From NCBI GenBank assembly GCA_016192705.1, contig JACPTQ010000040.1:1-54925 (forward strand): DNA of 54,925 nt. The letters are read 5' to 3'. Made by a program: the position numbers and the translations under genes. Shown in pieces: positions 7,345 to 43,141 of this stretch. Within the stretch, counting starts at the first letter, position 1, and each line of letters begins with the position of its first letter. The notes beneath the pieces were generated by a model, which was not told the DNA's origin, ran no database searches, and saw only the letters and a program-made list of their open reading frames with translations. The stretch comes from Deltaproteobacteria bacterium. Lineage in GTDB: Bacteria > Myxococcota > JACPTQ01.

Positions 7345-7423
7345 GCGTACGAATGCGTTGTAAGCATGTGAGCGACCCGCATACGGTCACATCACCTGCT
7401 CTTTGCACCAACGCCTCCTCGGG

Positions 7424-7453: not shown

Positions 7454-7459
7454 CCCCGC

Positions 7460-9085
7460 GTGGCTGAGCGGTACGACGCAGTTGTCATCGGCTCGGGAAT
7501 CGCCGGACTTTCGTTCGCGCTCAAGGCGGCGGCGCGCGGGACGGTTGCACTCGTCACGAAGCGCGCGGCCAGTGAATCCAACACGGTTAACGCACAAGGC
7601 GGTATCGCGTCGGTGCTTGCGCCCGGCGACTCGATCGAGGCGCATGTTGCCGACACGGTGCTCTGTGGTGACGGGCTGTGCCACCGCGACGCGGTGCAGG
7701 TTTGCGTCGCAGAGGGCCCCGAGCGAGTTCGCGAGTTGATGCGCCTCGGCGCCGAATTCGACATGTCGGCCACCGGCGAATTCGATTTGACGCGTGAAGG
7801 GGGGCACACGCAACGGCGCGTCGTTCACGCGGGTGACATCACAGGACGCGAGGTGATTCGCGTTCTCTTGTCGGCCGCGCGGGCGAATCCCAACATTCAT
7901 CTCTTCGAGAACCACTTCGCGATCGATGTCATTGTGACGGCTAAACATCTGCGGGGCGAAAACAAAGCGAACGACGGAGGGAATAACCCAGACACCGCCA
8001 AAGCCGGAAACCGAGCCCTCGGCGCCTATGTTCTCGACGTCGAGAGCGGGAGCGTTCGAACACTCCTCGCGCCCGTCACCGTGCTTGCAACGGGCGGTGC
8101 GGGCAAGGTCTACCTCTACACGTCGAACCCCGACGTCGCAACCGGCGACGGCATCGCCATGGCGTACCGCGCGGGCGCAGTCGTCTCCAACATGGAGATG
8201 TTTCAGTTTCACCCGACGTGCCTCTTTCACCCGCACGCAAAGTCGTTCCTCATTTCAGAGGCGCTTCGCGGCGAAGGCGGTATTCTGCGCACCGTCGACG
8301 GCGGCGAGTTTATGGGCCGCTACCACCCGATGCAAAGCCTCGCCCCGCGCGACATCGTGGCCCGCGCGATCGACGCCGAATTAAAACGCCGCGGCGACGA
8401 CTACGTCTGGCTCGACATGACGCATCTTTCGTCCGACTTTTTGAAGCGGCGCTTCCCCAATATTTTCGAAACGTGCGCACGCTTCGGCGTCGACATGACC
8501 ACGCAGCCAATTCCGGTCGTTCCGGCCGCACACTATTCATGCGGCGGTGTCGTGACCGACTTGACCGGCGAGACCAACATTCGCGGCCTCTACGCGATTG
8601 GCGAAGTCGCGATGACGGGACTTCACGGGGCGAATCGCCTGGCGTCGAATTCGCTCCTCGAGGGGCTTGTTTTTGCGCACCGCGCGGCCGCCGCCTCGAC
8701 GGAACACGGTCGCGACGCGGGATTCACGCGCCTCACGCCTCCCGACTGGGACGCCGGTCGCGCAACCAACTCGGACGAGATGGTCGTCGTTTCGCAGAAT
8801 TGGGACGAAGTCCGGCGCCTCATGTGGAACTATGTCGGCATCGTCCGCTCCACGCGGCGGCTCGAGCGCGCGCGGCGACGCATCGCCGTTCTCCTCGAAG
8901 AAATCCGCGAGTATTACTGGGACTTTCTCGTGACGCGCGATCTCCTCGAATTGCGCAACATCGCCACCGTCGCGGACCTCGTGATTCAATGTGCTCTTCA
9001 ACGTCGCGAGAGCCGCGGCCTTCACACGACAATCGACTACCCGTCCAAGCGCGACGAAGCGCGCGACACCACCGTTCGCCGCTAA
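7460..9085 (+). CDS. nadB: L-aspartate oxidase
   Basis: 541 aa flavoprotein that oxidises L-aspartate to iminoaspartate, the first step of de novo NAD synthesis; NadA (31480-32409) performs the next step. The N-terminal FAD-binding motif VVIGSGIAGLSFAL is at about 8-21. Family signatures include AQGGIASV near 48, GGHTQRRVVHAGDITGREV near 114 (substrate/FAD region), a GGAGKVYLYTSNP segment, HPTCL and GLHGANRLASNSLLEG. The C-terminal helical domain of the succinate dehydrogenase/fumarate reductase family is present. Length is normal. The start is GTG; no ribosome site is visible and the mRNA is probably leaderless. The stop overlaps the stop of the converging gene within CTAA (9082-9085). Confidence 0.95.
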   Translation: MAERYDAVVIGSGIAGLSFALKAAARGTVALVTKRAASESNTVNAQGGIASVLAPGDSIEAHVADTVLCGDGLCHRDAVQVCVAEGPERVRELMRLGAEFDMSATGEFDLTREGGHTQRRVVHAGDITGREVIRVLLSAARANPNIHLFENHFAIDVIVTAKHLRGENKANDGGNNPDTAKAGNRALGAYVLDVESGSVRTLLAPVTVLATGGAGKVYLYTSNPDVATGDGIAMAYRAGAVVSNMEMFQFHPTCLFHPHAKSFLISEALRGEGGILRTVDGGEFMGRYHPMQSLAPRDIVARAIDAELKRRGDDYVWLDMTHLSSDFLKRRFPNIFETCARFGVDMTTQPIPVVPAAHYSCGGVVTDLTGETNIRGLYAIGEVAMTGLHGANRLASNSLLEGLVFAHRAAAASTEHGRDAGFTRLTPPDWDAGRATNSDEMVVVSQNWDEVRRLMWNYVGIVRSTRRLERARRRIAVLLEEIREYYWDFLVTRDLLELRNIATVADLVIQCALQRRESRGLHTTIDYPSKRDEARDTTVRR

Positions 9086-9804: not shown

Positions 9805-10799
9805 TCTGGAAACCCAATCCCCTTCTCGCGCGCCATAATCTCTTCGATCGACCGCATTTGCAAACCGAGGAACCGCTCATTCTCCGCCTTGTCGGGGTAT
9901 CCCTCGTTGACCGTGCCGCCGAACATCCACGTCTTGTAGACCGCCTCGCCGCCCTCGTTGTCCGCCTTAAACGAAATGTAAAACCGCCCGCGCATTTTCG
10001 TCTCGGCGAAACTCTTTCGCACCTTCGATGTCGGCGCCGAAGTGCCAAATACGTAACGCCACAGCTTCCCAACGATCGCGCTGCGGTCGACAAACCCCTT
10101 CCCGTCTCGCGTTGAGCGCGCTGGCCCGACAACCGACAGCCCGTTCAAGTTGACGAGGTCCCATTTCCGCGCGCCCACTTTTCGCCGCTCAACCGGGGGC
10201 GTCTCGATGCGACTCATATCGACCGCGTCGAACGCCCGAATCGCCGCCGCGGGAACGCCGTACAACTCGTTCGAGAAATGGTTCCAATCCGCCTTTCCGA
10301 TCCGCACGATGTCCTCGAACCGAACCTTCGCGCTGCTCGTCGCATCGGCGTACCCAAACGGCCGGCCCCACGCCTTGGCCGGCACAACGATTTCGTAGAA
10401 CCCAAAAAAAACGTTGTACCAAATCGACGCTGGGTTCGCGTAATTCCCGCGCCCAAGAAGGTCGGTTTCAGCTGCGGCGAAGGCGACCTTGAAAACGAAG
10501 CGCGGATACGCGGAGAAGAGCGCGTTGTGCACGACTTTGCCGATACCAGCTGGGAAACCGGTCGCGTTCGGGCCAACGTTAATTCGCAGCGCGAAGGGCG
10601 CCGATTTTGATTTCCCGATCTTTGGGTCGTCGACCTTTGGAACGTTGAGGATAATCTTGTCGTTGATTTGCGCGACCGGAACGACCTTCTCGATGAGACC
10701 CTTCAGGGGCGATAGGTCGGGCCACTTGACAGCCTCCGCGCGACCTCCACCGATCATCAGTCCAGCGACAACAAAAGTAACAACGAGAGCTTTTCGCAT
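9801..10799 (-). CDS. Exported protein of unknown function, coupled to the V4R gene
   Basis: 332 aa. Signal peptide MRKALVVTFVVAGLMIGGGRAEA with a likely type I cleavage after AEA near residue 23, preceded by a strong AGGAGGG ribosome site. The mature part is mixed alpha/beta, with few cysteines and no motif I recognise. Aromatic-rich segments (ASIWYNVFFGFYEIVVPAKAWGR) suggest a ligand-binding or membrane-associated fold. First gene of a two-gene operon with the V4R protein; the pair may sense or carry a hydrophobic compound, which is inference only. Confidence 0.6.
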   Translation of the reverse strand: MRKALVVTFVVAGLMIGGGRAEAVKWPDLSPLKGLIEKVVPVAQINDKIILNVPKVDDPKIGKSKSAPFALRINVGPNATGFPAGIGKVVHNALFSAYPRFVFKVAFAAAETDLLGRGNYANPASIWYNVFFGFYEIVVPAKAWGRPFGYADATSSAKVRFEDIVRIGKADWNHFSNELYGVPAAAIRAFDAVDMSRIETPPVERRKVGARKWDLVNLNGLSVVGPARSTRDGKGFVDRSAIVGKLWRYVFGTSAPTSKVRKSFAETKMRGRFYISFKADNEGGEAVYKTWMFGGTVNEGYPDKAENERFLGLQMRSIEEIMAREKGIGFPE

Positions 10800-10857
10800 G
10801 ATTGACCCTCCTACCCTGAAACCATTCGAACATATTCATCTACGTTCGGCAAACGGA

Positions 10858-10869
10858 GCGGAATTCCGC
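10858..10869. promoter_or_regulatory. Perfect 12-bp palindrome between divergent genes
   Basis: GCGGAATTCCGC reads the same on both strands. It lies 59 bp upstream of the minus-strand exported-protein gene and 22 bp upstream of the -35 box of the divergent lipoprotein gene, a good place for a shared operator. A 12-bp palindrome can occur by chance. Confidence 0.25.
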
Positions 10870-10890
10870 AGCTGGACGCGTTCCACTCCC

Positions 10891-10919
10891 TTGTATTCGG
10901 ATGTAGGTTCATGTATGAT
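10891..10919 (+). promoter_or_regulatory. Candidate sigma-70 promoter of the LNS2 lipoprotein gene
   Basis: TTGTAT (10891-10896), 17-nt spacer, TATGAT (10914-10919, 5 of 6 consensus). The predicted start near 10926 gives a leader of about 40 nt containing GGAG at 10954-10957, 8 nt before ATG 10966. This is an ordinary led promoter, unlike the leaderless type seen elsewhere in the window. Confidence 0.45.
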
Positions 10920-10965
10920 GTTTGGTTATTGCTTTCAGCGGCTGGTGATTTACGGAGTTAATAAA

Positions 10966-12165
10966 ATGATGGCCAAATATCCAAAACTCGTTCTGGCCCT
11001 GGGCGCGTCGGTGGCGCTTATAGCGTGCGGTGACCCTACGATTCCTTCGCCCTCAGCGGGCGACCCCAATCCCTCACCACGCCTTTCCGATCGCCTCGAT
11101 GCAGGGACATCGACAACTCCACCCAATCCGATTCCGCCGGCACCAGCCGTAGAAGACGCGGGTTCGGTTGTCGACGCAGGTTCCACGACGCCAGCGGTCG
11201 ACGCCGGCCCAACGCCCAACCCGAACCCAAACCCGAACCCAACACCAGTCGGCTGCAGCACCGCTCCGCAAACCCCCGACCCCGCTTGGTCGCACGGCTG
11301 CCCGGCCTATGCGCCCACGATTCGCCCGGCCGGCAGCGACGCAGCCTACCTCATCGGCAAATTCGCGTACTGCGAACTCATCGACAAAGACTTGAAAGAG
11401 GAGTGGGTTCAAACGTGGGTAGAGGACACCCAATGCAATTGGACCATGGTGTCGCGCCAAAAGACGTCGCTCGACAACGATTCGGTTTGGGTCGACGGCG
11501 TGCAGGATGACGGCGGGCGCATCTTCAAGCTCCTCGCAGGCGCGGCGGTCACCGCGGGCAGCCACAACGTCACGATGCTCGTCGAGGGCGATCTCTCGCG
11601 GGCCGACTTCGCGCTCCACGTTTTTAAGCGGGGGACGCACGCGGTCATTTTCGACATCGACGCGACGCTCACCACGAGCGACTTGCAGGCCGTTATGAGC
11701 CTCGCAGCGGATATTTTTGGCGGGTCGTTTTCGCCAACGGCGTACGACGGCGCCGCGGAGCTGACGCGCAATTTCGCCGCGAAGGGTTACAAAGTGATCT
11801 ACCTCACGGCGCGCAAGGAGTTCATGCGAAGTCTCACGGAGAAGTGGCTGAAGGACGGTGGCTTCGCCGCGGGTGTCGTATTCTTCATGGACGGCTTCAG
11901 TTTGTCTCCGCCCAGCAAGCCTGACCAGCTTGCGTACAAGAAGGCGAAGATGAAAGAGATCGCGACGACAAAGGGTCTGGCGATCGACTACGCCTACGGC
12001 AACGCCGAACACGACGTCGAGGCGTATCAGTCGGTCGGGATTCCCAACAGCCGCATCTTTACGATTGGCGACATTGCCGGCGTTCGAAGCTCTACGCCGA
12101 TTCGAGACAACTACTGCGATCACTTGAATTCGGCGCGCGGCTTCCCGACGCCCAGCCAGCCGTAG
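10966..12165 (+). CDS. Lipoprotein with a lipin-like (LNS2) HAD-phosphatase domain
   Basis: 399 aa. The signal peptide ends LIAC (lipidated Cys21). Residues 22-95 are a Pro/Asp/Thr-rich disordered linker with an Asn-Pro repeat. A Cys-containing beta-rich domain follows (about 97-220). The C-terminal domain starts HAVIFDIDATLTTSDLQAV; DIDATLT at 230-236 is the catalytic D-x-D-x-T loop of lipin/Smp2/Ned1 (LNS2) HAD proteins, followed by YLTARKEFMR, KPDQLAYKKAKMKEI and YAYGNAEHDVEAY, which match LNS2 motifs II-IV. In eukaryotes the family dephosphorylates phosphatidate. Here it would act outside the cytoplasm, anchored by lipid; phosphatidate or phosphoinositide-like substrates are a guess. Start chosen by GGAG at 10954. 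Confidence 0.75.
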   Translation: MMAKYPKLVLALGASVALIACGDPTIPSPSAGDPNPSPRLSDRLDAGTSTTPPNPIPPAPAVEDAGSVVDAGSTTPAVDAGPTPNPNPNPNPTPVGCSTAPQTPDPAWSHGCPAYAPTIRPAGSDAAYLIGKFAYCELIDKDLKEEWVQTWVEDTQCNWTMVSRQKTSLDNDSVWVDGVQDDGGRIFKLLAGAAVTAGSHNVTMLVEGDLSRADFALHVFKRGTHAVIFDIDATLTTSDLQAVMSLAADIFGGSFSPTAYDGAAELTRNFAAKGYKVIYLTARKEFMRSLTEKWLKDGGFAAGVVFFMDGFSLSPPSKPDQLAYKKAKMKEIATTKGLAIDYAYGNAEHDVEAYQSVGIPNSRIFTIGDIAGVRSSTPIRDNYCDHLNSARGFPTPSQP

Positions 12166-17181: not shown

Positions 17182-19254
17182 TCAGTTTCTGCCGGCCGCC
17201 TTAAACAGGAACGGGTAAGTGACGGTCACGCGCTCGCCGTACGGCGAACGCTGAAATTCCCAGCGCTTGATCTTACTGCACATGCAACCTTCGACGTTCG
17301 CGTTCTTGAGCGTCGATTCGCGAATCTTGCAACCATCAACTTCGCCGCTTGTCAAAATGCCGAACGACACAATCACCTTCCCGCTCAGATTCGGTAGTTT
17401 TTCAAACTCTACCTGATAACAGTATTGAATCTCCTTGAGCCGCTGGCGAATAATGCGCCGCACCATTTCACGATCGATGTTCCCTTCGAACGTGACATCG
17501 CCCGTTGAAACCGGCGGGCCGAACCCGGCCGGGGTCGCCAACTTCGTGCGTTTCCTGAGCGGCAACGCGGCCCGCGCCGGCTGCACCTGACCCGCGGTGT
17601 TGACGTTGCCAATTCCGACCGTACGGTCGATTCCGCCACCGCCCTCCGCACTGCCCTCGTCCCCGAACCCGCCTTCGCCCTGTCGATCGCCGTTTGGCCC
17701 AACGTCCGTCGGGGATCCCGCGCCCGACGCGCGATCCCCGCCACGGGCCACGCCCTTTCCCCAATCGCTTGACACGTGAAACTCACCGGCCCCCCCCGTC
17801 GGCCGAAAGAGTCGCCCCAAACTCGGGTCCCGTTCGATCCGTTCGAGCTCCTGCATCAGTTTGGTGCTCTTCACAACCTCGACGTCGCGCCGCTTTTTTT
17901 CGCCCGGCTCAAGCGTCGTGGTATCCGGCGCTTTGATGCCAAGCTTTGCGCGCCGCTGAGGCCCCTCGGCGATTCCCGCACGCCCCGACTTTCCGGCGTG
18001 CCGCCGCCCTCCGTCCTTTGGCTCGACTTTCGTCGATGCCATCCGCTCGAGGATGCGACGCTCGCGTTCCGACAACGGATGAACCTCGGGTTTGAACTGC
18101 GTCGGCGAAAACCGGTCAGACCCGTCAAAACGATCGCGGCTAAACCCATGCGGGTCGTCGGGCTGTATCGCCGCAACGAGCAGCGTCCCGCCGTTCAGAA
18201 GAAGCGACACGAGAAACGCGAGCACGATGAGCGGGTTGATCGACGCAAACCACGGCGTCCGCGCGGTTCTCGGACGACGCGCAACAGTCAGCTCGAGTTC
18301 AAATGGATCGAGCCACAAGGTCGCGGTCGACCCAAGCGGGAACGGGACGGTGAAACTCGCCACAAACTGCCCCGGGCCACGCTCCGCCGACGTCGCGAGC
18401 GCGCTGAGCGGAAGTACGCTGTCTCCGCGCCCAACCGTGCCGGAAAGCTCAGGAACCAAATGAAGCCACCGACTGCCACCGCGTTCGATCAGAAGCGGAA
18501 ACGTCGGCGCCGGGAGGTGTGCGGCGGTGCAGAAAAAATCGCTCGCCGGTCCGTCTCCAACCGAAACGCCCTCGCCGTCACCAAGAAAGCGGTGCACCAC
18601 CGTGCTCGCACCCCATCGTACCGTGAGGACCACGGCTTCCGCGCCCTGCGCCGCCGACCGCCCCGGCTGCGTCGCACCCCGGTGCCCTTCGCCCGTGCGC
18701 TCGCCCTCCGGCGACCAACCAAACCCAGGCGGTGCACCGAACCCCGCTATCGGCAGCTGCGCGTCATCTCTGGAATCGAGCCCCGAACGACGCTCCGCGA
18801 CTTTTCCTTCCTTGGACGAGGCGCCGAGAAGAACGGCCGTATGCAGGTCCTCATGACGCACCGCGGGTTCCGTCTCGATGCTCATCGTAGCGTCCGTCAC
18901 CAAACGCACAAGAGTCCCCCCGAAACGGATTTCGTCGCTCGGGTGCAGTTCCTTTTTCTGTATTCGCTCGCGGTTCAAAAAAGTCCCCGAGCGGCTCCCG
19001 AGGTCGATGAGCCACAGCCCTCCGTCGGGCGCTGTTTCTATAACAGCGTGGACCGCCTCGACCGACGGGTCCTCCAGCCGCAACGTTGAGGTTGGCGCGC
19101 GCCCCACCTTAACAACCGCTCCAGCACCGTCCACAACCCGCGGCGGTTTGCCAGGCTCAAAAACAGAAAACCGAAGCGGTGCCACGCGCGATTTCGGGTT
19201 GCCATCGGGGGTCAGCGATGAAGTCGAAGTGCCGTCCGCCATTCGTTGCGACAA
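17182..19254 (-). CDS. FHA-domain, membrane-spanning AgmX/PglI (TonB-like) protein
   Basis: 690 aa. FHA domain about 45-120 (KVGRAPTSTLRLEDPSVEAVHAVI, then GSRSGTFLN). A beta-rich second domain covers about 205-325. A single membrane helix lies at 339-361, then a charged Gly/Asp/Arg-rich periplasmic spacer to about 585. The C-terminal domain (about 585-690; LKEIQYCYQ, GKVIVSFGILTSGEVDGCKI, STLKNANVEGCMCSKIKRW, VTYPFLF) matches AgmX/PglI C-terminal domains, structurally TonB-like and found in myxobacterial motility and envelope proteins. Adjacent exbB-exbD should energise it. The FHA half on the cytoplasmic side suggests phospho-dependent gating. Start is TTG 19254 or ATG 19242; no strong ribosome site favours either. 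Confidence 0.85.
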   Translation of the reverse strand: MSQRMADGTSTSSLTPDGNPKSRVAPLRFSVFEPGKPPRVVDGAGAVVKVGRAPTSTLRLEDPSVEAVHAVIETAPDGGLWLIDLGSRSGTFLNRERIQKKELHPSDEIRFGGTLVRLVTDATMSIETEPAVRHEDLHTAVLLGASSKEGKVAERRSGLDSRDDAQLPIAGFGAPPGFGWSPEGERTGEGHRGATQPGRSAAQGAEAVVLTVRWGASTVVHRFLGDGEGVSVGDGPASDFFCTAAHLPAPTFPLLIERGGSRWLHLVPELSGTVGRGDSVLPLSALATSAERGPGQFVASFTVPFPLGSTATLWLDPFELELTVARRPRTARTPWFASINPLIVLAFLVSLLLNGGTLLVAAIQPDDPHGFSRDRFDGSDRFSPTQFKPEVHPLSERERRILERMASTKVEPKDGGRRHAGKSGRAGIAEGPQRRAKLGIKAPDTTTLEPGEKKRRDVEVVKSTKLMQELERIERDPSLGRLFRPTGGAGEFHVSSDWGKGVARGGDRASGAGSPTDVGPNGDRQGEGGFGDEGSAEGGGGIDRTVGIGNVNTAGQVQPARAALPLRKRTKLATPAGFGPPVSTGDVTFEGNIDREMVRRIIRQRLKEIQYCYQVEFEKLPNLSGKVIVSFGILTSGEVDGCKIRESTLKNANVEGCMCSKIKRWEFQRSPYGERVTVTYPFLFKAAGRN

Positions 19255-28375: not shown

Positions 28376-29197
28376 ATGCGGCGTCTCCTTTCACTCGCTC
28401 TCGCGGCCATCACTCCATTGGGTTTAAGTGTTCTTGCGGTAACGGCCTCGTGTAAAAAAGACCAATCCACCGCCGTGCCCACTCCGCGAGACGAACGCGC
28501 GGCGGCGCCGGAGGATCGCTTGGCGGCCAGTGCCTCGGCCGCAGTCCTGACCCCCGCCGTGCCTCGCGCGGACGGCGATCCATCTGCGTGTGACACGAGA
28601 TTGGGGAGACAGGGTGCCCCCGTCACGTGCATGTGCGCGCCTGACGCGATGACGGGACCGGTGTGGGGGAGCGACATTTATACTACCGATTCGGCAATTT
28701 GCGCCGCTGCGCTGCATGCGGGCGTCGTGACGAGGGCTGGCGGTGCCGTGGTCGTCGTGCCGACGGGCGGCTGCCGAACGTACAACGGCGTCACCCGAAA
28801 CGGGATCTCGTCGGGCGCTTGGGGCGAATACGAATCGAGCTTCTATTTCAAAGGCTATGGCGATGGAAAGTGCCAGACCGAGACGCCCGGCTGCCCGGGG
28901 GCGTTCGGCCAGATCCTTAACGTGTCAGCCGCCACGGTTCGGGAATGCGATTGCGGCCCAAAGCCACCCGATGGAAGCGTTTGGGGCACTGCGATCTACA
29001 CGTCTGACTCGTCGATCTGCGCCGCCGCTTGGCACGCTGGCGCTGTCACGACGCGCGGAGGGAAAGTGACCGTCAAGGGCGCACCGGGATGCGGGTCGTA
29101 TAAAGGGAGCGTTCAAAATGGCGTCGCGTCAGCCGATTGGGGAAGTTACCAGTTGAGCTTTTTCTTCCCGGCGAAGGGACCCGCAAAGTGCCCGTAA
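28376..29197 (+). CDS. Lipoprotein with two tandem LCCL domains
   Basis: 273 aa, ATG preceded by GAGAGGAC. The signal sequence ends VTASC, so Cys26 is the likely lipid anchor. After a Ala/Pro-rich linker come two similar modules, about 90-160 and 195-270, each with G-x-V-W-G-(S/T)-x-IYT-x-DS-(A/S)-ICAAA-x-HAG-V, then a GG-x-V-V-V core, C-x-(S/T)-Y-x-G-(V/S) and a W-G-(E/S)-Y closing strand. This is the LCCL fold, first known in animal extracellular proteins and occasionally found in bacteria. Each module has a Cys-rich entry (CMCAPDAM, CDCGPKPPDG). A surface binding role is inferred; ligand unknown. Confidence 0.78.
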   Translation: MRRLLSLALAAITPLGLSVLAVTASCKKDQSTAVPTPRDERAAAPEDRLAASASAAVLTPAVPRADGDPSACDTRLGRQGAPVTCMCAPDAMTGPVWGSDIYTTDSAICAAALHAGVVTRAGGAVVVVPTGGCRTYNGVTRNGISSGAWGEYESSFYFKGYGDGKCQTETPGCPGAFGQILNVSAATVRECDCGPKPPDGSVWGTAIYTSDSSICAAAWHAGAVTTRGGKVTVKGAPGCGSYKGSVQNGVASADWGSYQLSFFFPAKGPAKCP

Positions 29198-29274: not shown

Positions 29275-30720
29275 ATGCGCCGACCGCATGTCATTGCGCT
29301 GGCACTCATTGTCGCGGTTGTACTCGCGGTCTTCGGGCAGACCCTGTCTTTCGACTTCGTTAGCTTTGACGACGCGATCCACGTTCGCAACAACCCGCAC
29401 GTCTTCTCGCCCGACTTCTTCGCGGCAAGTTTTTGGATTCAGCCCGAAATCGGTTACTCGGTCACGCTTCCAACACTGACCTACGCACTCAACCACGCGC
29501 TGCACGAGCTCGAGCCCGCGGGTTACCATCTCACCAACGTCCTCATTCACGCACTAAACGCCGCGCTCGCCTTTTTCTTGCTTGAACGCCTCGGCCTGAA
29601 ACGCCCCCTCGCGATCGTTGCGGCGCTCCTCTTCGCGCTTCACCCCGTCGTCGCTGAGCCTGTGTCTTGGATTACCGGCCGCAAAGACCTCCTCGCGACA
29701 TCATTCGCCCTTGGCGCCCTCATCGTCTGGCTTGAGCCGACGCTCACGCTTCGCCGCATCGTCGTCGCCAACATCCTCTTCGCGCTCGCCGCGCTCTCCA
29801 AGCCATCAGTATTCGCGCTTCCCCTCTTCCTCGTCTTCTACGACCGCTTCGTCGCACACCGCGGCTCATTGCAACGCGCCGCCTTGGCCATCACCCCCGC
29901 GATCGCGATCGCCGTCGCGCTCGGCATCGCGGCCGCCCTCTCATCGAGCCTCGACCTCGCGATCGACCCCGCGCGCGCCGCCCCGTTCCCGCTCCGCGTC
30001 TTTCGCTCGCTCGGCCATCGCCTCGCGTCGCTTCTCGTCCCGACCGACCACCACCCGTACTACCTCCTTAAACCAGCAACTTGGTTCGAACCCGCAACCA
30101 TCCTCGGAATGAGTTTCGTCGCGCTCATTGTCGCCCTCGCCGCCAACTGGGCGTTCCGAGCGTCGCGCGCTTTTCCGCTCGTCGTCCTCGGCGCGATTTC
30201 GTACGCCCCCATCTCGAACATCATCCCCCTCGTCCATGAGGTCGGCGATTCGCACCTTTATTTACCGCTTGTCTCCGTTGCGGGCCTCGTCGCGCTCGGC
30301 CTCGGCGAAATCACCGAGCGACTCAAACCCGCACTGCGAATCACCGCGTTCGCCGCACTCCCCGTCGCCTTCATTCCACTCACACTCGCCCAATCGGCCA
30401 TCTGGCGCGACAGCGTCACGCTCTGGTCGCATGAGCTCGAGGCGTATCCGCAGTCCGCGCGCGTTTGCCATCACCTGGCCGGCGCCTTTGCTCTTCGCGG
30501 CGAGCCCCACGTTGCGCTCGCGCATCTCGAACGCTGCGCCGTCGATCAGGAAAGTCGCGTTGAACTCTTGCCAAGCCTTGCCGCGGCCGCGGCCCAAGCG
30601 CGCGATCGCGAAAAGTATTTTTCGATTATGCGCGAAATGGTCGAGCATCGGCCCGACCACCCAAGCTCAAAGCAGTTTCGCGACCGTTACGGTGGGAAGC
30701 TCCCCGGCGTTTCAAGATAG
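29275..30720 (+). CDS. Multi-pass membrane protein, TMTC/GT-C-like glycosyltransferase candidate
   Basis: 481 aa. About nine hydrophobic helices between 5 and 370, followed by a short tetratricopeptide-like C terminus (about 375-475, AHLERCAVDQESRVELLPSLAAAAAQARDREKYF). The N terminus has FVSFDDAIHVRNNPHVFS; the acidic pair in the first loop corresponds to the catalytic D-D/E of GT-C enzymes. GYHLTNVLIHALNAALAFFLL and ALLFALHPVVAEPVSWITGRKDLLAT match eukaryotic TMTC and bacterial relatives annotated as O-mannosyltransferases. It would transfer a sugar from a lipid carrier to extracytoplasmic protein or glycan; donor and acceptor are unknown. Confidence 0.72.
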   Translation: MRRPHVIALALIVAVVLAVFGQTLSFDFVSFDDAIHVRNNPHVFSPDFFAASFWIQPEIGYSVTLPTLTYALNHALHELEPAGYHLTNVLIHALNAALAFFLLERLGLKRPLAIVAALLFALHPVVAEPVSWITGRKDLLATSFALGALIVWLEPTLTLRRIVVANILFALAALSKPSVFALPLFLVFYDRFVAHRGSLQRAALAITPAIAIAVALGIAAALSSSLDLAIDPARAAPFPLRVFRSLGHRLASLLVPTDHHPYYLLKPATWFEPATILGMSFVALIVALAANWAFRASRAFPLVVLGAISYAPISNIIPLVHEVGDSHLYLPLVSVAGLVALGLGEITERLKPALRITAFAALPVAFIPLTLAQSAIWRDSVTLWSHELEAYPQSARVCHHLAGAFALRGEPHVALAHLERCAVDQESRVELLPSLAAAAAQARDREKYFSIMREMVEHRPDHPSSKQFRDRYGGKLPGVSR

Positions 30721-32535: not shown

Positions 32536-33801
32536 TTAATCTTTCGCGGGCTCTTCTTTCTCTTCCTTTTTTTCGACTTTGCGGATCCCGGTGATCTCCT
32601 CGCGTTCGACCAGCATCAACCGAGGTTTTCCGCTTCCAATCGTCAGCGCCGAAAACTTCTCGCGCAAAATTTTCCCGACGGCCGGCGCGTAGATGATTCG
32701 CTCCTCGTCCGTCCCACGCGCGATGCGCACCTCGATGCAACCGCGGTAAATGCCCATCTCGGTCGCCGTCTCGATGTTGATGCGCGAAATCTTGACCTCC
32801 GCGTCCCCCTCAGTCCAATGCGTGCCCACGCGAATCGGGTCGTGCAAAAAATCACTCGATTTCACGGTCTGTAGTCGCTCGGTCCCGCTCCCCTTGCGGA
32901 ACTTCAAGTGAATGCTCTCGCCCGTCCGCGACGCCGCCTCGACCTCTTGATCCTCGGTCGCCTGCGTGTCGGTCACCCGGTACGACCAAATGCGCCCAAC
33001 GACAAGCCCCGCATAGCCGTCGCCCTTTGCGGCCTTGATCGCTGGGAACGTCTTGTACGCGCCCTTTTCCATCTCCTGCTCCACTTCGGGCAGCCGCTTC
33101 AATCCTTTCGCAAACGCCTTCACCCACCCCTTAACCCACGAACTCGGGTAACGCCGCGTAATGCGCGCAATCTCACGGACGACGCGCCCCTCAAGACTCT
33201 GATTTACAAGCGCAGCGATCTGCTCCGACGATTCGTTGGCCGCCGAAGGACCGGCCAAAACACCCATGAGACGCGTCTTTGCGCGCTCACACGACTCGCC
33301 CGCCTGTACCGGGCGCTCTCCTTCGGTCAGCACCGCGAGAAGCGCCGCACGCGCCGCCTTGCACCGCACGTCGTCGTCCATCGATTCGAGCGCACCGAAA
33401 ATGTCGAGCACGCGCCCGAGCAAAAGAAGGCGCGCAACGCCAGCGAGGTCGGTCGCGTCGCGGCTCTCGAGGGCCTTAACCGCCGACTCGATGTAATCGA
33501 GGTTCGCCGTCACCGCCCGCTTGAGGAGCCGCTCCATAATCCGATACGGCGCCTCGCGTTTTCGCCCCATCGCTCGCGCCGCCTGCGACGCGGACTTCGT
33601 GAGCGTCGAAAGTTGCGCCGTGAGTCGCGCCCACCACTTCTCGCCCTCGGCAGACCGAAGAATCGCGCTCTCGATCGCCGTGAGCAGCGACTCAACCGCC
33701 GCGGGCTTTGAACCCGCCTCACCGCGCGCGACACCCGCCCCCGCAACCGTTGCGACGAATAAAGCCACCCCCCCACACGACGCCCAAAGAGTTTTTTTCA
33801 C
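32536..33801 (-). CDS. Exported helical protein of unknown function, coupled to the GspE_N-REC-TPR gene
   Basis: 421 aa from GTG 33801; the GTG overlaps the TGA of the upstream gene (GTGA) and has GAGGAAC seven bases before it. Signal peptide VKKTLWASCGGVALFVATVAGAGVARG with cleavage near residue 30. Residues about 35-250 are helix rich; about 280-405 are beta rich, including a WSYRVTDTQATED segment and TRVGTHWTEGDAEVKISRINIETATEMG-like strands. The end is a Glu/Lys-rich tail. No family recognised. The tight coupling suggests a joint function with the upstream regulator, possibly an envelope assembly factor. Confidence 0.68.
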   Translation of the reverse strand: MKKTLWASCGGVALFVATVAGAGVARGEAGSKPAAVESLLTAIESAILRSAEGEKWWARLTAQLSTLTKSASQAARAMGRKREAPYRIMERLLKRAVTANLDYIESAVKALESRDATDLAGVARLLLLGRVLDIFGALESMDDDVRCKAARAALLAVLTEGERPVQAGESCERAKTRLMGVLAGPSAANESSEQIAALVNQSLEGRVVREIARITRRYPSSWVKGWVKAFAKGLKRLPEVEQEMEKGAYKTFPAIKAAKGDGYAGLVVGRIWSYRVTDTQATEDQEVEAASRTGESIHLKFRKGSGTERLQTVKSSDFLHDPIRVGTHWTEGDAEVKISRINIETATEMGIYRGCIEVRIARGTDEERIIYAPAVGKILREKFSALTIGSGKPRLMLVEREEITGIRKVEKKEEKEEPAKD

Positions 33802-35213
33802 GTGATGTTCCTCAAATGTTGATCGATTTCTGAAATGAGACTCGGATCGGGACAACTCGCCTTCGCGCGCTCCCAAACCTCCGCAGCTTTCCGGCGAAAC
33901 CCCCGCTCTTGATAAAGAATCGCGAGCTCCTTGAGCGCTGCAAAAAGATTGGGCGCGAGCTCGACGGCTCGCTCGAACTCGTTCATCGCCTCGTAGGGCA
34001 ACCCACGCGCGAGTTTCACACGGCCCATAAGGAGTCGAAGCGGCGCAACAAACGGCTGCTCGCGAAGCGCGTCTCCGAGCCTCGCTTCCGCCTCATCAAA
34101 CTTTTCTGCGCCGACGAGCGCTTCCGCTTCTTCGACCGCGATCTGCGCGAGCGCCGGATCGCTGACCCTCGATTGACCGCCGGATCGGGACAGCAGATCC
34201 TCGGCGAGCCGATAGAGTTGATTGATGTCGAACGGTTTCTCGACAAACGCATCCGCACGATAAACGTTAAGAATATCCTCGCGAAACCGCCAACCGCGAT
34301 ACACCGCAGACATCATGATGACGGGAATCGATTGAAACCGGCTGCTTGATTTCACCTGCCGGCAGATCTCAAAGCCGTGGACCTCAGGCAACATCGCGTC
34401 GAGCAAAATAAGATCGGGGAGCGTGTTTCGAATCGCCTCAAGCGCGTGCGAACCCGTGCCGGCGAGCGTTATCTCGGCCTTAAGAGGGCGCAGCAGTCGC
34501 TCGCAAAGCTTAAGCAGCTCGGGATCATCATCAACGATGAGCACCCGTTTGCCACCCGTCGAACCGCTCACGGCCCCCGTGGCGGCGCCGGGCACAGGCG
34601 CCAACTGAGCGGTCACGGCGCTTGCCCCCACCGCTTCGCGCAACGCGGCCGGGACTTGCGGAAGATCGTCGCTCGTCACAACCGAAGCGAACCCGTTCTC
34701 GACATCCTGCGTGAGATCCGCTTCTTCGCCGAGATAAAGATCCTGGGCGCCGGCCCGCGCAAATGTGTAACACCGCTCAATCGTCTCGCGCAGCGCAATC
34801 TCAAGCGCCACATGGGGGATAACCCGTTTCCCCGTACGAAACGCAATTTCGTCGACCGTGTCGCGACGGTGCGGCTCCGCGAGCGCCACCAAAAGGCGAT
34901 CCGATTCCGATGCAATGGGAAGCGCGAGAACTTTGACCGCAATTTCATAAGGTATCGCCCCGAGCAGCGGAATCTTCACGACCGAGCGCGACAAATCGAT
35001 CGCCGGATAACCCAGTTGCCGCGACAGATGCACGAGCAACGCACGCTGCGGTTGAAACCCGAGCGCGAAGCAGTGAGACGCGAGGCGGCCGCCAAATCGG
35101 CGTTGGCGATCAAGCGCGCGGTTTAATTGGTCTTGGGATACCGTACCGGAACCGACGAGCATCTCACCGAGGAGACGAGAGCCCCCGTCCTTTCCGCGCG
35201 AAACACCAGCCAT
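33798..35213 (-). CDS. GspE_N-receiver-TPR regulatory protein
   Basis: 471 aa, cytoplasmic. Residues about 12-150 match the N-terminal domain of type II secretion/pilus ATPases (GspE_N/MshEN): LLGEMLVGSGTVSQDQLNRALDRQ and LGYPAIDLSR. MshEN domains can bind cyclic di-GMP. A receiver domain follows (about 222-345), with acidic residues 228-230, phospho-acceptor Asp272 (LILLDAMLPEVHG) and VEKPFD. The C terminus (about 365-465) is tetratricopeptide-like (FDEAEARLGDALREQP, AMNEFERAVELAPN). No ATPase or output DNA-binding domain. ATG 35213 lies 8 nt after a -10 box and is probably leaderless. Likely a regulator of pilus, secretion or motility machinery. Confidence 0.83.
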   Translation of the reverse strand: MAGVSRGKDGGSRLLGEMLVGSGTVSQDQLNRALDRQRRFGGRLASHCFALGFQPQRALLVHLSRQLGYPAIDLSRSVVKIPLLGAIPYEIAVKVLALPIASESDRLLVALAEPHRRDTVDEIAFRTGKRVIPHVALEIALRETIERCYTFARAGAQDLYLGEEADLTQDVENGFASVVTSDDLPQVPAALREAVGASAVTAQLAPVPGAATGAVSGSTGGKRVLIVDDDPELLKLCERLLRPLKAEITLAGTGSHALEAIRNTLPDLILLDAMLPEVHGFEICRQVKSSSRFQSIPVIMMSAVYRGWRFREDILNVYRADAFVEKPFDINQLYRLAEDLLSRSGGQSRVSDPALAQIAVEEAEALVGAEKFDEAEARLGDALREQPFVAPLRLLMGRVKLARGLPYEAMNEFERAVELAPNLFAALKELAILYQERGFRRKAAEVWERAKASCPDPSLISEIDQHLRNIT

Positions 35214-37178: not shown

Positions 37179-40100
37179 GTGCGAATTGACACGCGGATCG
37201 AGGCGCCCTTTCTGCGGCCGCTGGCGCCTGCGGAACAAGAACAGCTCGCGAGACAAGGGTGCTCGGGCGCTCTCGACGAAATTCGCATCGCGCCCGCCGC
37301 AGAAGGTGCACTCAAACAAATCATCCGCACGAGTTTTCGCGGCGCAACGTGGATCTTGTCGCCCGACGTCGACCTTCGCGATTCCGACATCGACGCATCC
37401 ATGCTAAGCGCGGCGACGGTTTCGCGATCGCGCGTTGAGCGGAGCTTCCTCGGGAATCACATCGTCGTGGGCGCCTGGAGCGTCGTGCGCGACAGCGTGC
37501 TCGCGCCGTTCCACCGACGCACGCAATTGCCAGGAGGCGCAACGCGCGTGGATCTGTTTGGCGTTACCGTTGAACAGTCGCATGTCTCGACGAGTGTCAT
37601 TTGGGGCGGAACGGACGTTGGACCGTTCGCTTCGGTCCGTCCGAATTCCATCGTTGGACCGTTTGTCCATGTGGGAACGGGCAGCGAAATCAAATCGTCG
37701 TGGCTCATCGGCGGAAGCCCGCTCCACCGCGTGGAGGTGCCGCATCGCAGCTACATCGGCGACGCGCGCATCCGGGCCATTCGCCTGGCGCCGCGATCGA
37801 TTGGTGAAGCTCCCGACGGCAACGCGACGGACGTCCCATGGGGGAGCCCCGCGTGGACAGAGCGTTGGGAACAGGCCCTTCGCGCGATCCGGCGCGGCGT
37901 TTGGCTCGACGCAACTCCGATCGGAATCGACGGTGGCGTCCAACCACGAACGTTGGCGCGGTTTCGACTTGACGGCCGCGCAATACAAGTTGAGATCGAG
38001 TCGGTCAACCTCGGCGCGCTGTTCACGACCAGCAATTTCGACCCGCGCGCCGGTGGCCTCAAGATGCCGACGGAGATCGGCGGCGGCGCGAAGATCGGCG
38101 TACTCACCTGGGCCCAAGCTCCATGTGTGATCGGCGAGGGCGCGCTGATCGCCAGCGGTTCAAAGGCGTTTCTTGATGTTGTGTCCAACGACAGCCTCGC
38201 GTTTGGCGGTGTTGGCGAACATCTTGTTAAGGAAGGTTACTTCTCCGAGACCGCGGTCCACTTGGGCGCCGGCGTTGAAACGGGCGTCAAAATCGCACTC
38301 GGCTACATGGCGGGCATCGACGCCGGGATTCGAGTCGCGAGTCAAGCCGCGGCGGCCTCCCACGGGATTGAACGCGTCGCGTGGATCGCCGAAGCCGACA
38401 CTCTGCTCGCGGCGCGCGAAGAAGCCCTCAAATGGCTCGGGCTGTTTCGAAAGGCAATCGGGCGCTCGCTTGATTGGTGGACGCGCGACAATAGGCCGGA
38501 TGCGATGGCGCGGCGAACCGACCACCAGCGCGCACTTGACCGCTTTGGGACGAGCTCACCGGCGCCCACGATCGAGTGCCGAGAGACCGACGCGACCGAC
38601 CTCGCGGAAGCCCTATCGATTGCAGCGGGCGCCTCGAATCCGTCGGCGTTCAGCAACATCGTTCACGACGACTTGGGCGTGACGTGGGACGACGTCGCGC
38701 GCGCAGCGGCGATCGCCGAATCGATCGCGCGCGAGTTGAGCGGACCGCGAGAGGCCGGGGCCCACGCGCGTGACGACCGAGCAAACATCCGCGCGGGAAC
38801 CGCACACGGCGCACCGACGCCACGGATGTTCGGAACCTCCGGTGTCCGCGGCGTTTACCGCGAATCTTCACGCGCGCCGCTTGCCGACTACACCACCTCG
38901 CAAATTGTGACGCCCGGGTTGAGCGCGCTTCTCGGTCGCGCCTTCGCCCGCGTGCTCTTGAAACGTGGCGAAGGAAACCTGGTCACGGTCGTTCACGACG
39001 TACGCCCCTCGAGCCTCCCGCTCGCAGCGGCTGTCGTCGAAGGACTCGTTCTGGAAGACGCGCGTGTCGAGTGGGGCGGGACTCAGACCACACCGACCGC
39101 AGCGCATCTCCGAGATCGCGCGGTGGTTGTCATCACCGCCTCGCATAATCCACCTTCCGAAAACGGCCTCAAGTTTTTCTCACGCGGTCGGCCCATCGAC
39201 GCGTCGTTTGAAGACGAGATCCAGCGAATGGCCGCGGACTTTTCCCAGGCACCAGTGTCGGGCACCCGCGGCGCACCTCGATCACCGCAAATCAAAAACA
39301 TCAGCGATGCGATCCGCGCAGCGCGGCGTGCGGATCTTCTGCGCGACGTCCACTCGCTCCGGCTCAACGAAGCGTTGTCGGGCAGACTGGTGGTCCTCGA
39401 TCTCGCGCACGGGGCCGCAGCGACGTTTCTCGGCGGAGGAGGCACGTCGTCGGTCGTGTCACCTGGACTCGAAGCCGTCCTCGCAACGGGCGCCGTGGTG
39501 ATCGGCTTTGCGTCCGAACAAGACCCGCCCATGGTCAACGTTGCGGTGGGTGCGGCGTATCCGTACGGCGAATGTCGAACGCCCGCTACGCCAGAATCCG
39601 CGTCGGGACTGGCCATCCGCCCCGGTCCCGGCGAGATCGCGGCGTTTGCGCGCGGTGCCCATGGGTATGGACGCGGCGAGGCGGGATCAGACGAAAACGG
39701 AACGTGGCGCCCACACCGAACTCCAGCCCGCGACGCACCGGAGCGCTCGATCTACTTGCCGGTTGGCACGACGCTCCCATCGAAAGCGCTCGCCGCGCAC
39801 GTCACGCGATTTTCGGGTGGTCTGAGCGGACTCATCGCCTTCGATCGGAATCCCGCGCTCCGTGCGGAGGTCGAAAAATGGCTTGTGACCTTGGGAACAC
39901 CGATCATCGCCGCAGCGGTCGACTGCGATGCCGACCGCCTGCTCGTCACCGACGGAGATCTCGCCGCGCGCGACCCAGGATTCCTCGATGGTGACCGACT
40001 CTTGGCGACCCTTGCCGCGGAGACGGAGAACGTCGCAGAAGTTGTCGTTACGTGTGAATCCGGAATCGGTGTTTCTGCGTTGGCCGCCGAACGTGCGTAT

Positions 40101-40877
40101 CCTTTTGTTCGAACAACGGTTGGCGACCGCGCCGTTGGCATGGCGCTCCTTCGACCAGGTGCGGCCAACAGGATTCAACCCGGTTCTGTCGCGCTCGGGG
40201 CCGAGCCCTCGGGGCATATCCTCATCGCCGAGCTGGACGACGAGCACGACGGCGTACCGCGCATCGTCGATGATCCGTTTTCAGTTTTTTTGCGACTCCT
40301 CGCCATTATGCAGCGACGTGGGAAAAACCTCGCGGCGATTGCGCAAGAGACGTGCGCCGCGTTGGAGCTCGACGTGGTCGTTCGAAAACCCGAGGCCTGG
40401 GGAATTACGCTCGACGATAAGCGGCGCTTAACGCTCGGTGACTGGCAGCCCAACCGCTCGGTTCGCCTGAGCGATTACGCCCGCGCGCACATCGATTTCG
40501 TCGCGGGCCGCTTCGCCGCGATCGCCTGCGACGTTGGCCTGGTCGAACGCCCGCCCAAAATAAAAGTCCCCAACACCGCGCGCTCCGATGAGAAGACCAT
40601 CCTCGGTGGAGCGGGCGACTTGACGATCGCACTCTTGGCGTCGTCCGAGGCACACCGCGGAGCCGAGGATATCGTGATAGCGGTAACGCGAAACTCCACA
40701 GTCATATTTGAAGCGGTGTCCCGCAACTCCGGTACAAGCCCAAAAAACTCGTGCTACTGGAAGGCCAACCTTGGCGACACGAACGTTCCAACGTCAACGC
40801 TGAAATCGATCTTGGAAAAGGCAGCGGCCGACCGCGCCGACTTCACGCTCAAGTGGCTCAAAAAAAACCGCTCGTGA
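37179..40877 (+). CDS. Fusion protein: left-handed beta-helix (DUF4954-like) plus phosphohexomutase
   Basis: 1232 aa. Residues about 1-55 and 60-330 resemble the hexapeptide left-handed beta-helix family: the LAPAEQEQLARQGCSGALDEI start is DUF4954-like, then irregular hexad repeats (VVGAWSVVRDSVLAP, TDVGPFASVRPNSIVGPFVHVGTGSEI). After a helical linker (about 400-540) comes a complete alpha-D-phosphohexomutase (PGM/PMM/GlmM type): FGTSGVRGVY near 550, catalytic-serine loop TASHNPPSENGLKFF near 654, metal loop DCDADRLL near 914, sugar-recognition loop GAEPSGH near 1007. The Ser-to-metal-loop distance (about 260) is about 120 longer than usual. GTG start. It probably interconverts a hexose or hexosamine phosphate; the helix may bind or acylate product. 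Confidence 0.82.
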   Translation: MRIDTRIEAPFLRPLAPAEQEQLARQGCSGALDEIRIAPAAEGALKQIIRTSFRGATWILSPDVDLRDSDIDASMLSAATVSRSRVERSFLGNHIVVGAWSVVRDSVLAPFHRRTQLPGGATRVDLFGVTVEQSHVSTSVIWGGTDVGPFASVRPNSIVGPFVHVGTGSEIKSSWLIGGSPLHRVEVPHRSYIGDARIRAIRLAPRSIGEAPDGNATDVPWGSPAWTERWEQALRAIRRGVWLDATPIGIDGGVQPRTLARFRLDGRAIQVEIESVNLGALFTTSNFDPRAGGLKMPTEIGGGAKIGVLTWAQAPCVIGEGALIASGSKAFLDVVSNDSLAFGGVGEHLVKEGYFSETAVHLGAGVETGVKIALGYMAGIDAGIRVASQAAAASHGIERVAWIAEADTLLAAREEALKWLGLFRKAIGRSLDWWTRDNRPDAMARRTDHQRALDRFGTSSPAPTIECRETDATDLAEALSIAAGASNPSAFSNIVHDDLGVTWDDVARAAAIAESIARELSGPREAGAHARDDRANIRAGTAHGAPTPRMFGTSGVRGVYRESSRAPLADYTTSQIVTPGLSALLGRAFARVLLKRGEGNLVTVVHDVRPSSLPLAAAVVEGLVLEDARVEWGGTQTTPTAAHLRDRAVVVITASHNPPSENGLKFFSRGRPIDASFEDEIQRMAADFSQAPVSGTRGAPRSPQIKNISDAIRAARRADLLRDVHSLRLNEALSGRLVVLDLAHGAAATFLGGGGTSSVVSPGLEAVLATGAVVIGFASEQDPPMVNVAVGAAYPYGECRTPATPESASGLAIRPGPGEIAAFARGAHGYGRGEAGSDENGTWRPHRTPARDAPERSIYLPVGTTLPSKALAAHVTRFSGGLSGLIAFDRNPALRAEVEKWLVTLGTPIIAAAVDCDADRLLVTDGDLAARDPGFLDGDRLLATLAAETENVAEVVVTCESGIGVSALAAERAYPFVRTTVGDRAVGMALLRPGAANRIQPGSVALGAEPSGHILIAELDDEHDGVPRIVDDPFSVFLRLLAIMQRRGKNLAAIAQETCAALELDVVVRKPEAWGITLDDKRRLTLGDWQPNRSVRLSDYARAHIDFVAGRFAAIACDVGLVERPPKIKVPNTARSDEKTILGGAGDLTIALLASSEAHRGAEDIVIAVTRNSTVIFEAVSRNSGTSPKNSCYWKANLGDTNVPTSTLKSILEKAAADRADFTLKWLKKNRS

Positions 40878-43141
40878 CGTTTGCCTCAACTCGATATCGT
40901 CGCGCTCGAATCCTCTTCGGCGGATTGGCATTTGCATTTCTCGCCGAACTCCCCGGGGCCGCCGGTGCTGCGTCGGCACCTGACCTGCTTCTGGAGTACA
41001 ACGCACGGCAACGCGCCGAACGACTCGATGTGGCCGGGACGCCAAAGGAAGCGTTGCCCGAGTGGTTGCGCATCATCAAACTCTGTCGCCGCGAGACTTT
41101 CTTCTCGTGCGCGGAGGCGCGAAAGCGTGTTCTGGCGCTCGTTCGCGATGAGACCGCGTGCGACGCGCTCGGAGAAGTCCGGCGGTTGATTCAAAAGGGT
41201 GACGAGCCTTTACTTCAGCGGCCATCCATTCTCTGCGCGATCCGCAAAGGTCGGGTCAGCCACGCGATGAAACCACTTCGCGATCTCGTTGTCCGCGCGT
41301 CCGAGTCGCCCGATGGCGTCTGGGCGCGTGACGTCGCCTTGCCCGAGTACATAAAGGCCGGCGGCTCGTGGCCGCATTATTCCGCGCGCGAAAAACTCGA
41401 CGAGGCCGTGGCCCTCCGTCGTGCCAAGCGTTTCGACGAAGCGCTGCAAAAATTTCGCGCGCTCGACTTCGAGTGGAGAGGCAATCCGTCCGCGGCGGAC
41501 CTTCGACGCCTCCTACCGTTTGAAACCGCACTCACACAGTTTCGCGCGACGAGCCTTGAGGCGGCTGAGGCAGGGTTCCGAAAACTTGTTAAGGAGGCGC
41601 GTTCCGTCGAACAAGCCGACGGTTACCGATTTTGGTTGGCATCAACCTTTCAAAAGCAAGGCCGGCTGCTCGACGCATCGAAGTTGTTTGAACAGATCTA
41701 TGGCCGACACGCCCGCGAGGATTCGGCACGCTCCACGCTCATGCGCTCCATAGAAGCCCTTCGGAAGACGAGCGAGGTGGAACGTATCTCGCGTCTCTTC
41801 GAGCGTCTTGGCGCTGACTTCCCAAATCATGCGCCATCCGTTGAGCTCGCATTCCGAGCGGTCCGCGTGTTGGCTGACGCCGGACTTTTCAAGCTGGCGC
41901 GCGCAGCCGCAACACGCTTCATGAGGCGGTTTGGAAAGCATCGACGCCGGGCCGACGCGGATTGGATGATCGCGTGGAGCACTTTCAAACTCGCGGAGTG
42001 GAAGCGCGCGGCGGCCCTGTTTAACAGCCTCGCGCGACGCTCACGCGTGGGCTCGGGAACAGTGACCGAGGGCGCCGCATACTGGGCGGCGGTCGCGTCG
42101 GAAAAGGCTGCGGTCGGCGGTTCGCGCACCATCCAAAACCAGTTCGCGCGACTCGCTGAAACCACCGGCGCTGGATTTTATCGGCACCTGGCGCAGAGCC
42201 GCAGCGCGCCGATCCCCAGAACGCCCAAGCCAATTTCTCCGCTCACAACTTCAATGGGCGACGCGACCGCGATCGAACAGGCCTTCAAACGGTTTCTACA
42301 AGCGCATCCTCTTGCGAATCGCTCGGCCCTTCGCGCGTTAACATTTGTGCAGAAAGGCCTTCTTGACGAAGCGGACCGTGAACTCTTCCGAATTCAGGAG
42401 CAGATTCGCACCGCGAAAGGTGGCCCCAAAGTTTCCGTGGTGCCCCCCCCCACAAGCAACGACCGCGCGTGGATGAGGCGGACCGCGCGTGGGATCTTGC
42501 TCGACTTGAACGGACTACACCGGGTCTTGGGAAACACATACCGCGTCGCACAAAACCTCCGCTTTTCGTACGGCTATCGCATTAACGGTGATGACGCCTG
42601 GCTTCGTTCGGCGTTCCCAACGCCCTTCTCAGAAATCGTCGCCCGCGCCGCACATGAACATCGGGTGCCCCTCGATCTCATTTACGCCATCATGCACACT
42701 GAGAGCTCATTCACGCCCGATGCCGTTTCGCCGGCCAACGCGCAGGGGCTTATGCAAATCCTTCCATCGACCGCGAAAAAGATCGCGGCGCAACGCGGGA
42801 TGCCTTTTGACGCGCGCGATCTCACGGCCATTTCCAAAAACATTGATTTCGGAGTCTGGTACCTCCGAGAGCTTCTCACCAAATTCCACGACCAATTGCC
42901 TCTCGCAATTGCAGCCTACAACGGTGGCCCACACAACGTCGCAGCCTGGCTCGACAACAAGGCGGCGCCCGCCCGCACGATGGACGAATTCCTCGAAGAC
43001 ATCCCGTTTCGCGAAACCCGCTTTTACGTTCGAAAGGTGATCGCTGCGGTCGGCGTCTACAGAAAGCTTTACGGCGCGGGCGGTCGCGTTACCGTTCCCA
43101 TCGCGCTCGACACACGATACGAAAACAACATCAACTTCTGA
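40874..43141 (+). CDS. Lytic transglycosylase, Slt70-like, with long helical N-terminal solenoid
   Basis: 755 aa from GTG 40874, which overlaps the TGA of the mutase gene (GTGA). Signal peptide with cleavage near residue 35 (ELPGAAGAASA). A long alpha-helical repeat region (about 40-560; EALPEWLRIIKLCR, FDEALQKFRALDFEW, DASKLFEQIYGRH) forms the superhelical ring of Slt proteins. The catalytic SLT domain is about 590-745: LIYAIMHTESSFTPDAVSPANAQGLMQILPSTA with catalytic Glu, and AAYNGGPHNVAAWLD. It cleaves peptidoglycan glycan strands to 1,6-anhydro-MurNAc products in the periplasm. Translational coupling to the mutase fusion suggests linked wall metabolism. Confidence 0.9.
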   Translation: MTFASTRYRRARILFGGLAFAFLAELPGAAGAASAPDLLLEYNARQRAERLDVAGTPKEALPEWLRIIKLCRRETFFSCAEARKRVLALVRDETACDALGEVRRLIQKGDEPLLQRPSILCAIRKGRVSHAMKPLRDLVVRASESPDGVWARDVALPEYIKAGGSWPHYSAREKLDEAVALRRAKRFDEALQKFRALDFEWRGNPSAADLRRLLPFETALTQFRATSLEAAEAGFRKLVKEARSVEQADGYRFWLASTFQKQGRLLDASKLFEQIYGRHAREDSARSTLMRSIEALRKTSEVERISRLFERLGADFPNHAPSVELAFRAVRVLADAGLFKLARAAATRFMRRFGKHRRRADADWMIAWSTFKLAEWKRAAALFNSLARRSRVGSGTVTEGAAYWAAVASEKAAVGGSRTIQNQFARLAETTGAGFYRHLAQSRSAPIPRTPKPISPLTTSMGDATAIEQAFKRFLQAHPLANRSALRALTFVQKGLLDEADRELFRIQEQIRTAKGGPKVSVVPPPTSNDRAWMRRTARGILLDLNGLHRVLGNTYRVAQNLRFSYGYRINGDDAWLRSAFPTPFSEIVARAAHEHRVPLDLIYAIMHTESSFTPDAVSPANAQGLMQILPSTAKKIAAQRGMPFDARDLTAISKNIDFGVWYLRELLTKFHDQLPLAIAAYNGGPHNVAAWLDNKAAPARTMDEFLEDIPFRETRFYVRKVIAAVGVYRKLYGAGGRVTVPIALDTRYENNINF

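Follow-up and report, generated by a model that had tools for sequence, protein, structure and literature searches.

A Putative Bifunctional Gene Joining a GlmU-Type Acetyltransferase Domain to a Divergent GlmM-Type Phosphohexomutase in a Myxococcota Genome

Gene Organization of the Locus

The synthesis of uridine diphosphate N-acetylglucosamine (UDP-GlcNAc) is essential in bacteria, and one of its enzymes, the drug target GlmU, is usually a single enzyme with two activities. Here, we describe a gene from a Deltaproteobacteria bacterium (GTDB lineage Bacteria; Myxococcota; JACPTQ01) which appears to join one half of GlmU, the acetyltransferase, to a phosphohexomutase of the GlmM type. The window, i.e., the whole stretch of DNA that was analysed, comprises 54,925 nucleotides (assembly GCA_016192705.1, contig JACPTQ010000040.1, positions 1 to 54,925) and is part of a 116.5-kb contig (C41) in an assembly of 5.21 Mb and 88 contigs, with 96.65% completeness and 0.82% contamination. 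Contig C41 additionally encodes rpoA, secY, and ribosomal protein L15, and thus represents core chromosome.

The fusion gene occupies positions 37179–40877 of the forward strand, on which all of its features given below lie, and encodes 1232 residues, assigned by open reading frame (ORF), Pfam, and NCBIfam analysis to a GlmU-type acetyltransferase beta-helix, a helical region, and a GlmM-type phosphohexomutase. A beta-helix fused to a phosphohexomutase without a nucleotidyltransferase had been predicted originally, and this architecture stands: the protein is one ORF with Pfam domains of both kinds, and Pfam scans of the whole chain and of six fragments gave no match to a nucleotidyltransferase domain. 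The G+C content at codon positions 1, 2, and 3 is 0.68, 0.53, and 0.71 overall, a periodicity that is maintained over the whole length and across the point where the two halves meet.

The gene belongs to a same-strand run encoding, in order, uracil-DNA glycosylase, an NfeD-like protein, a response regulator, the fusion protein, an SLT transglycosylase, and aspartate kinase. As the original prediction had it, the stop of the fusion gene and the start of the next gene share the sequence GTGA at 40874–40877, and the ORF and Pfam analyses confirm that this downstream gene (40874–43141, forward strand) carries an SLT lytic transglycosylase domain. The gene order, seen in this single genome, may point to a joint role of the two proteins.

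Because the fusion was found in one genome only, an error of assembly or sequencing that joined two separate halves has to be considered. However, the gene lies inside the 116.5-kb contig that carries rpoA, secY, and L15, the reading frame and the codon-position bias run through the junction, and the rest of the assembly yielded neither a separate glmM nor a glmU acetyltransferase half, so that we regard such an error as highly improbable. Thus, of the two doubts attached to the original prediction, absence from relatives is what was found (among the 195 genomes of the phylum, the fusion is absent from all others), whereas an artefact of assembly is unlikely.

The Acetyltransferase Half

Pfam recognized Hexapep and Hexapep_GlmU in the N-terminal half, the latter with 29.9 bits on residues 1–380 (cut-off 23.3). 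The NCBIfam GlmU model TIGR01173 matched the fusion over two stretches with 61.4 bits (6.9e-17), which does not reach its curated cut-off of 366.85, and the best GlmU-profile stretches on the fusion fall within the acetyltransferase part of the profiles. A phmmer search against the PDB (E ≤ 0.01) returned 18 sequences, every one of them GlmU. The original prediction had instead described a DUF4954-like region standing in for the nucleotidyltransferase. The N-terminal stretch LAPAEQEQLARQGC is reminiscent of DUF4954 proteins; however, PF16314 is without a match both in the source genome (E ≤ 0.01) and in the Pfam scans, which covered the entire protein and six fragments, whereas the GlmU profiles match. 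The DUF4954-like identity was therefore rejected, and a DUF4954-like beta-helix protein fused to the mutase retains very little probability. What stands of that replacement is the lack of a nucleotidyltransferase in the chain itself; a stand-alone GlmU uridylyltransferase gene exists elsewhere in the genome.

In detail, a first beta-helix stretch matching Hexapep_GlmU (residues 67–110, 37377–37508; Pfam on residues 1–380) is followed by a first GlmU acetyltransferase stretch (residues 134–198, 37578–37772) containing R154, K172, H189 (codon at 37743), and Y192. A second such stretch, placed by profile and alignment (residues 274–357, 37998–38249), contains N277, A280, N286, F287, and K295. The two are separated by a beta-helix insert of about 75 residues (199–273, 37773–37997), seen as a gap in the profile and the alignment, without a Pfam match and belonging to no known family, which follows the His/Tyr turn and precedes the Asn turn. 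The region joining the halves (residues 358–548, 38250–38822) is predicted to be mostly helical at low confidence, with helices at 357–393 and 397–437 in the model, and has no Pfam match over residues 355–548.

The active-site residues were mapped by alignment to E. coli GlmU and nine GlmUs of the phylum, and the mapping was rerun with eight of the nine and with an independent profile. Twelve residues of the E. coli GlmU acetyltransferase served as reference, of which S405, A423, and R440 are on the coenzyme A (CoA) side. Eight of the 12 are identical in the fusion, i.e., R333 (R154), K351 (K172), H363 (H189), and Y366 (Y192) in the first stretch and N377 (N277), A380 (A280), N386 (N286), and K392 (K295) in the second, and Y387 is changed conservatively to F287. 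Of the columns invariant in the nine GlmUs, 31 of 58 are kept, compared with 58 of 188 positions overall. H189 also aligns with residue 374 of PDB entry 3d8v, as counted from the match end points. A study of M. tuberculosis GlmU (PMC4619583) reports that the H374A substitution abolishes the acetyltransferase and K26A the uridyltransferase activity, and that the separated halves stay active.

The AlphaFold model of this half is poor (mean pLDDT, the predicted local distance difference test score, of 46.6), and a PDB search with it returned nothing at E ≤ 0.001; the beta-helix assignment therefore rests on the sequence profiles. By these profiles, the N-terminal half is the acetyltransferase, i.e., left-handed beta-helix, half of GlmU, with H189 as the predicted catalytic histidine.

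The Mutase Half

In the C-terminal half, Pfam recognized PGM_PMM_I (73 bits; residues 549–686, 38823–39236) and PGM_PMM_III (40 bits; residues 937–1058, 39987–40352), both over their cut-offs, and of the four phosphohexomutase domains sought, II and IV went unrecognized in the protein. The GlmM models of NCBIfam score about 107 bits, compared with 42 for PgmG and 40 for phosphomannomutase/phosphoglucomutase. The loops found are FGTSGVRG, TASHNP with the catalytic Ser655 (codon at 39141), the metal-binding DCDADR (residues 915–920, 39921–39938; alignments), the sugar loop GAEPSGH (residues 1007–1013, 40197–40217), and the phosphate-binding RNSGT (residues 1182–1186, 40722–40736; alignments). 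The last of these, in domain IV, was misplaced by one MAFFT alignment, and two other analyses put it at 1182–1186. The earlier statement that all mutase motifs are intact thus holds for the presence of the catalytic loops, with the reservations that the metal loop carries a Cys for Gly and that domains II and IV escape Pfam.

The insertion of about 120 residues predicted between the serine and metal loops was recovered as 121 extra residues, the distance from Ser655 to Asp915 being 260 residues vs. 139 in E. coli GlmM. The bulk of this surplus (residues 785–891, 39531–39851), delimited by alignment and AlphaFold pLDDT, is predicted to be unstructured, with residues 246–352 of the modelled fragment all below a pLDDT of 50. 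The mutase model as a whole (mean pLDDT 62) matches phosphohexomutase structures, GlmM included, without singling GlmM out. In a tree of 31 rows, the mutase half joins the GlmMs as a sister with support 98/94, and the other mutase of the genome joins PgmG-type proteins. On sequence grounds, we assign the C-terminal half to the GlmM-type phosphohexomutases, as a divergent member that has kept its catalytic loops.

UDP-GlcNAc Genes in the Genome and the Phylum

Only two PF02878 mutases are present in the genome, namely the fusion and a 452-residue PgmG-type protein on contig C20, which scores 515 bits to NF046027, and the genome search found no other GlmM and no GlmU over the curated cut-offs. 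The best and only bacterial-type GlmU match is a stand-alone uridylyltransferase half of 264 residues on a separate contig, which keeps 11 of 12 mapped residues, with Y103 changed to S. Its ORF (5806–6600 of L038) is followed by an ORF (6597–8165) that begins inside its last codons, and the missing GlmU half is therefore not due to an assembly gap.

A further candidate for acetylation of glucosamine-1-phosphate (GlcN-1-P) was an archaeal-type GlmU of 401 residues (L039:4623–5828, contig C3), which lies directly upstream of, and overlaps, glmS and scores 274 bits vs. a cut-off of 292.1. It has R and F at the catalytic His and Tyr positions and was set aside as the acetylating enzyme for lack of these two residues; its sequence suggests a nucleotidyltransferase with a retired acetyltransferase. 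Scanning the genome with a DNA pattern for the motif H-x-x-Y-[ILVFM]-G-D gave five occurrences, of which only the fusion copy is within a beta-helix; by sequence reading, one of the other four lies in a prolyl-tRNA-synthetase-like frame, and the remainder lie in short frames of 164, 140, and 77 residues.

In the phylum, GlmU is found over the cut-off in 177 of 195 genomes (183 at E ≤ 1e-20), and GlmM likewise in 177. Taken together, the gene inventory, the residues lost from the glmS-adjacent GlmU, the motif scan, and these counts leave no evident source of GlcN-1-P acetyltransferase in this genome other than the fusion, which is also the best candidate for its phosphoglucosamine mutase.

No full-length fusion was found among 58 relatives besides the source genome; six of the 58 match, including the source, and the rest are mutase-only. 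All listed relatives are from the same phylum, and none of the compared genomes is from the same class as the source. Six genomes that were without a full GlmU or GlmM over the cut-off, or were low-scoring, were re-searched with the fusion protein and yielded no fusion. Among plasmids, none of the 19 matching records covers 80% of the query, and in each of the 10 listed, the match is limited to the mutase region. No report of a GlmM–GlmU acetyltransferase fusion was found in open-licence PubMed Central papers.

Proposed Function

We consider it fairly probable, judging from these comparisons, that GlmU has been split in this organism, that its acetyltransferase half has been fused to GlmM to give a bifunctional enzyme of UDP-GlcNAc synthesis, and that the stand-alone uridylyltransferase completes the pathway. 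GlmS would yield glucosamine-6-phosphate, which the C-terminal mutase would convert to GlcN-1-P; the N-terminal beta-helix would then use acetyl-CoA to form N-acetylglucosamine-1-phosphate, to which the separate uridylyltransferase, encoded on another contig, would add uridine monophosphate to give UDP-GlcNAc. The role in wall-precursor metabolism that had been proposed for the gene is upheld. GlmU beta-helices are trimers, and by analogy the fusion is therefore probably a trimer with the mutase domains outside. By strict cut-offs, the fusion counts as neither GlmU nor GlmM; in function, it is probably one half of the former attached to the latter.

Several observations weigh against this assignment. 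On the acetyltransferase side, the three CoA-side residues of E. coli GlmU are altered (S405 to V308, A423 to S326, and R440 to G344). On the mutase side, the GlmM score of 107 bits is well under the cut-offs of 447.55 (TIGR01455) and 439 (TIGR03990), the metal loop DCDADR has Cys in place of the Gly of DGDADR, domain IV is of low confidence, the branch leading to this half is very long (3.41 changes per column), and the PgmG on C20 could supply GlmM activity. The gene is known from one draft assembly only, whose completeness means that canonical genes could be missing. With the N-terminal half as query, matches were obtained in 12 of the 195 genomes of the phylum, the source among them, the others giving short GlmU-like segments. 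Two pattern scans of contig collections, the first with six short patterns (36 stretches, none confirmed) and the second with two peptide patterns (196 stretches, three confirmed as ordinary mutases), gave no further full-length match but used few short patterns, and absence outside the phylum is therefore only weakly tested. Finally, in genome G016 (82% complete), the GlmU search found a GlmU reduced to the uridylyltransferase half (contig C245, L108:6408–7352, reverse strand), but no GlmM passed the cut-off and no relative of the fusion was found; it is either a second case of a split GlmU or an incomplete genome, and in part it also counts against the proposal.

The long branch and altered loops could also mean that only the acetyltransferase half is active, with a mutase half that has degenerated or has a different sugar phosphate as its substrate and with the C20 mutase in the role of GlmM. 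A precedent of sorts is genome G006 (95% complete), which has a full GlmU and a single mutase match below the GlmM cut-off, so that a genome may cope without a canonical GlmM. We nevertheless regard this account as unlikely, since the mutase still has its catalytic Ser/His, the three metal Asp with the Arg, and both the sugar (SGH) and the R-x-S-G-T loops, features that neutral decay would erase, and since it groups with GlmM in the tree.

The drift on the CoA side, the wall-active transglycosylase domain of the next gene, and the roughly 3% of the genome that may be missing would be in keeping with another account, in which the product of the fusion is another N-acetylated amino-sugar-1-phosphate, destined for a surface polysaccharide, and UDP-GlcNAc comes from canonical genes outside the assembly. 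However, the GlmU-type sugar-side residues are retained, glmM and glmU would both need to lie in an assembly gap, and the gene directly following the stand-alone uridylyltransferase leaves no such gap for the missing half; we judge this account quite unlikely.

Under the favoured reading of a split GlmU fused to GlmM, two consecutive steps that usually reside on two different enzymes would be joined in one polypeptide. It is about an even call that the lineage dismantled the otherwise near-universal bifunctional GlmU and reassembled the pathway from a GlmM–acetyltransferase fusion and a free uridylyltransferase, so that GlcN-1-P is made and acetylated in one chain, possibly handed directly between the sites, with the inserts in both halves serving the new assembly. 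If the reading is true, the pairing of steps in the UDP-GlcNAc pathway can change, the passage of GlcN-1-P between active sites becomes directly testable, and annotation by GlmU and GlmM cut-offs can overlook an essential pathway.

Comparison with Known Systems

We note likenesses and differences with respect to four known systems. First, the fusion shares with GlmU (TIGR01173) the acetyltransferase beta-helix with its sugar-side His, Tyr, Arg, Lys, and Asn, whereas it lacks the uridylyltransferase half and has the insert of about 75 residues, the three CoA-side changes, and an attached mutase. Second, it shares with GlmM (TIGR01455, TIGR03990) the FGTSGVRG start, the ASHNP serine, D-x-D-x-D-R, SGH, R-x-S-G-T, and the tree placement, whereas the 121 extra residues from the Ser to the metal loop, the divergent domain IV, the N-terminal acetyltransferase, and the score below cut-off set it apart. 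Third, fusions of a nucleotidyltransferase, a beta-helix, and a mutase exist, which likewise place a beta-helix and a phosphohexomutase in one chain; the present protein, in contrast, has no nucleotidyltransferase, and its beta-helix belongs to the GlmU acetyltransferase type. Fourth, archaeal-type GlmU (TIGR03992) also has a sugar-1-phosphate acetyltransferase beta-helix and has a relative directly upstream of glmS in this genome, but that copy, which is not fused to a mutase, has lost the catalytic His and Tyr.

Other Genes in the Window

Elsewhere in the window, two long ORFs gave no Pfam match at the thresholds used, one of 481 residues (29275–30720, forward strand) and one of 446 residues (32536–33876, reverse strand), the latter of which is overlapped by other ORFs and is perhaps not a gene. 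An FHA-domain protein with a TonB-like C-terminus (a weak match) is encoded at 17182–19254 on the reverse strand, and a protein with two LCCL-domain stretches at 28376–29197 on the forward strand. The forward-strand gene at 10489–12165 encodes a protein with a HAD domain of the LNS2/PITM type (96.6 bits to PF24694); the name of this family derives from eukaryotic phosphatidylinositol-transfer proteins and lipins.

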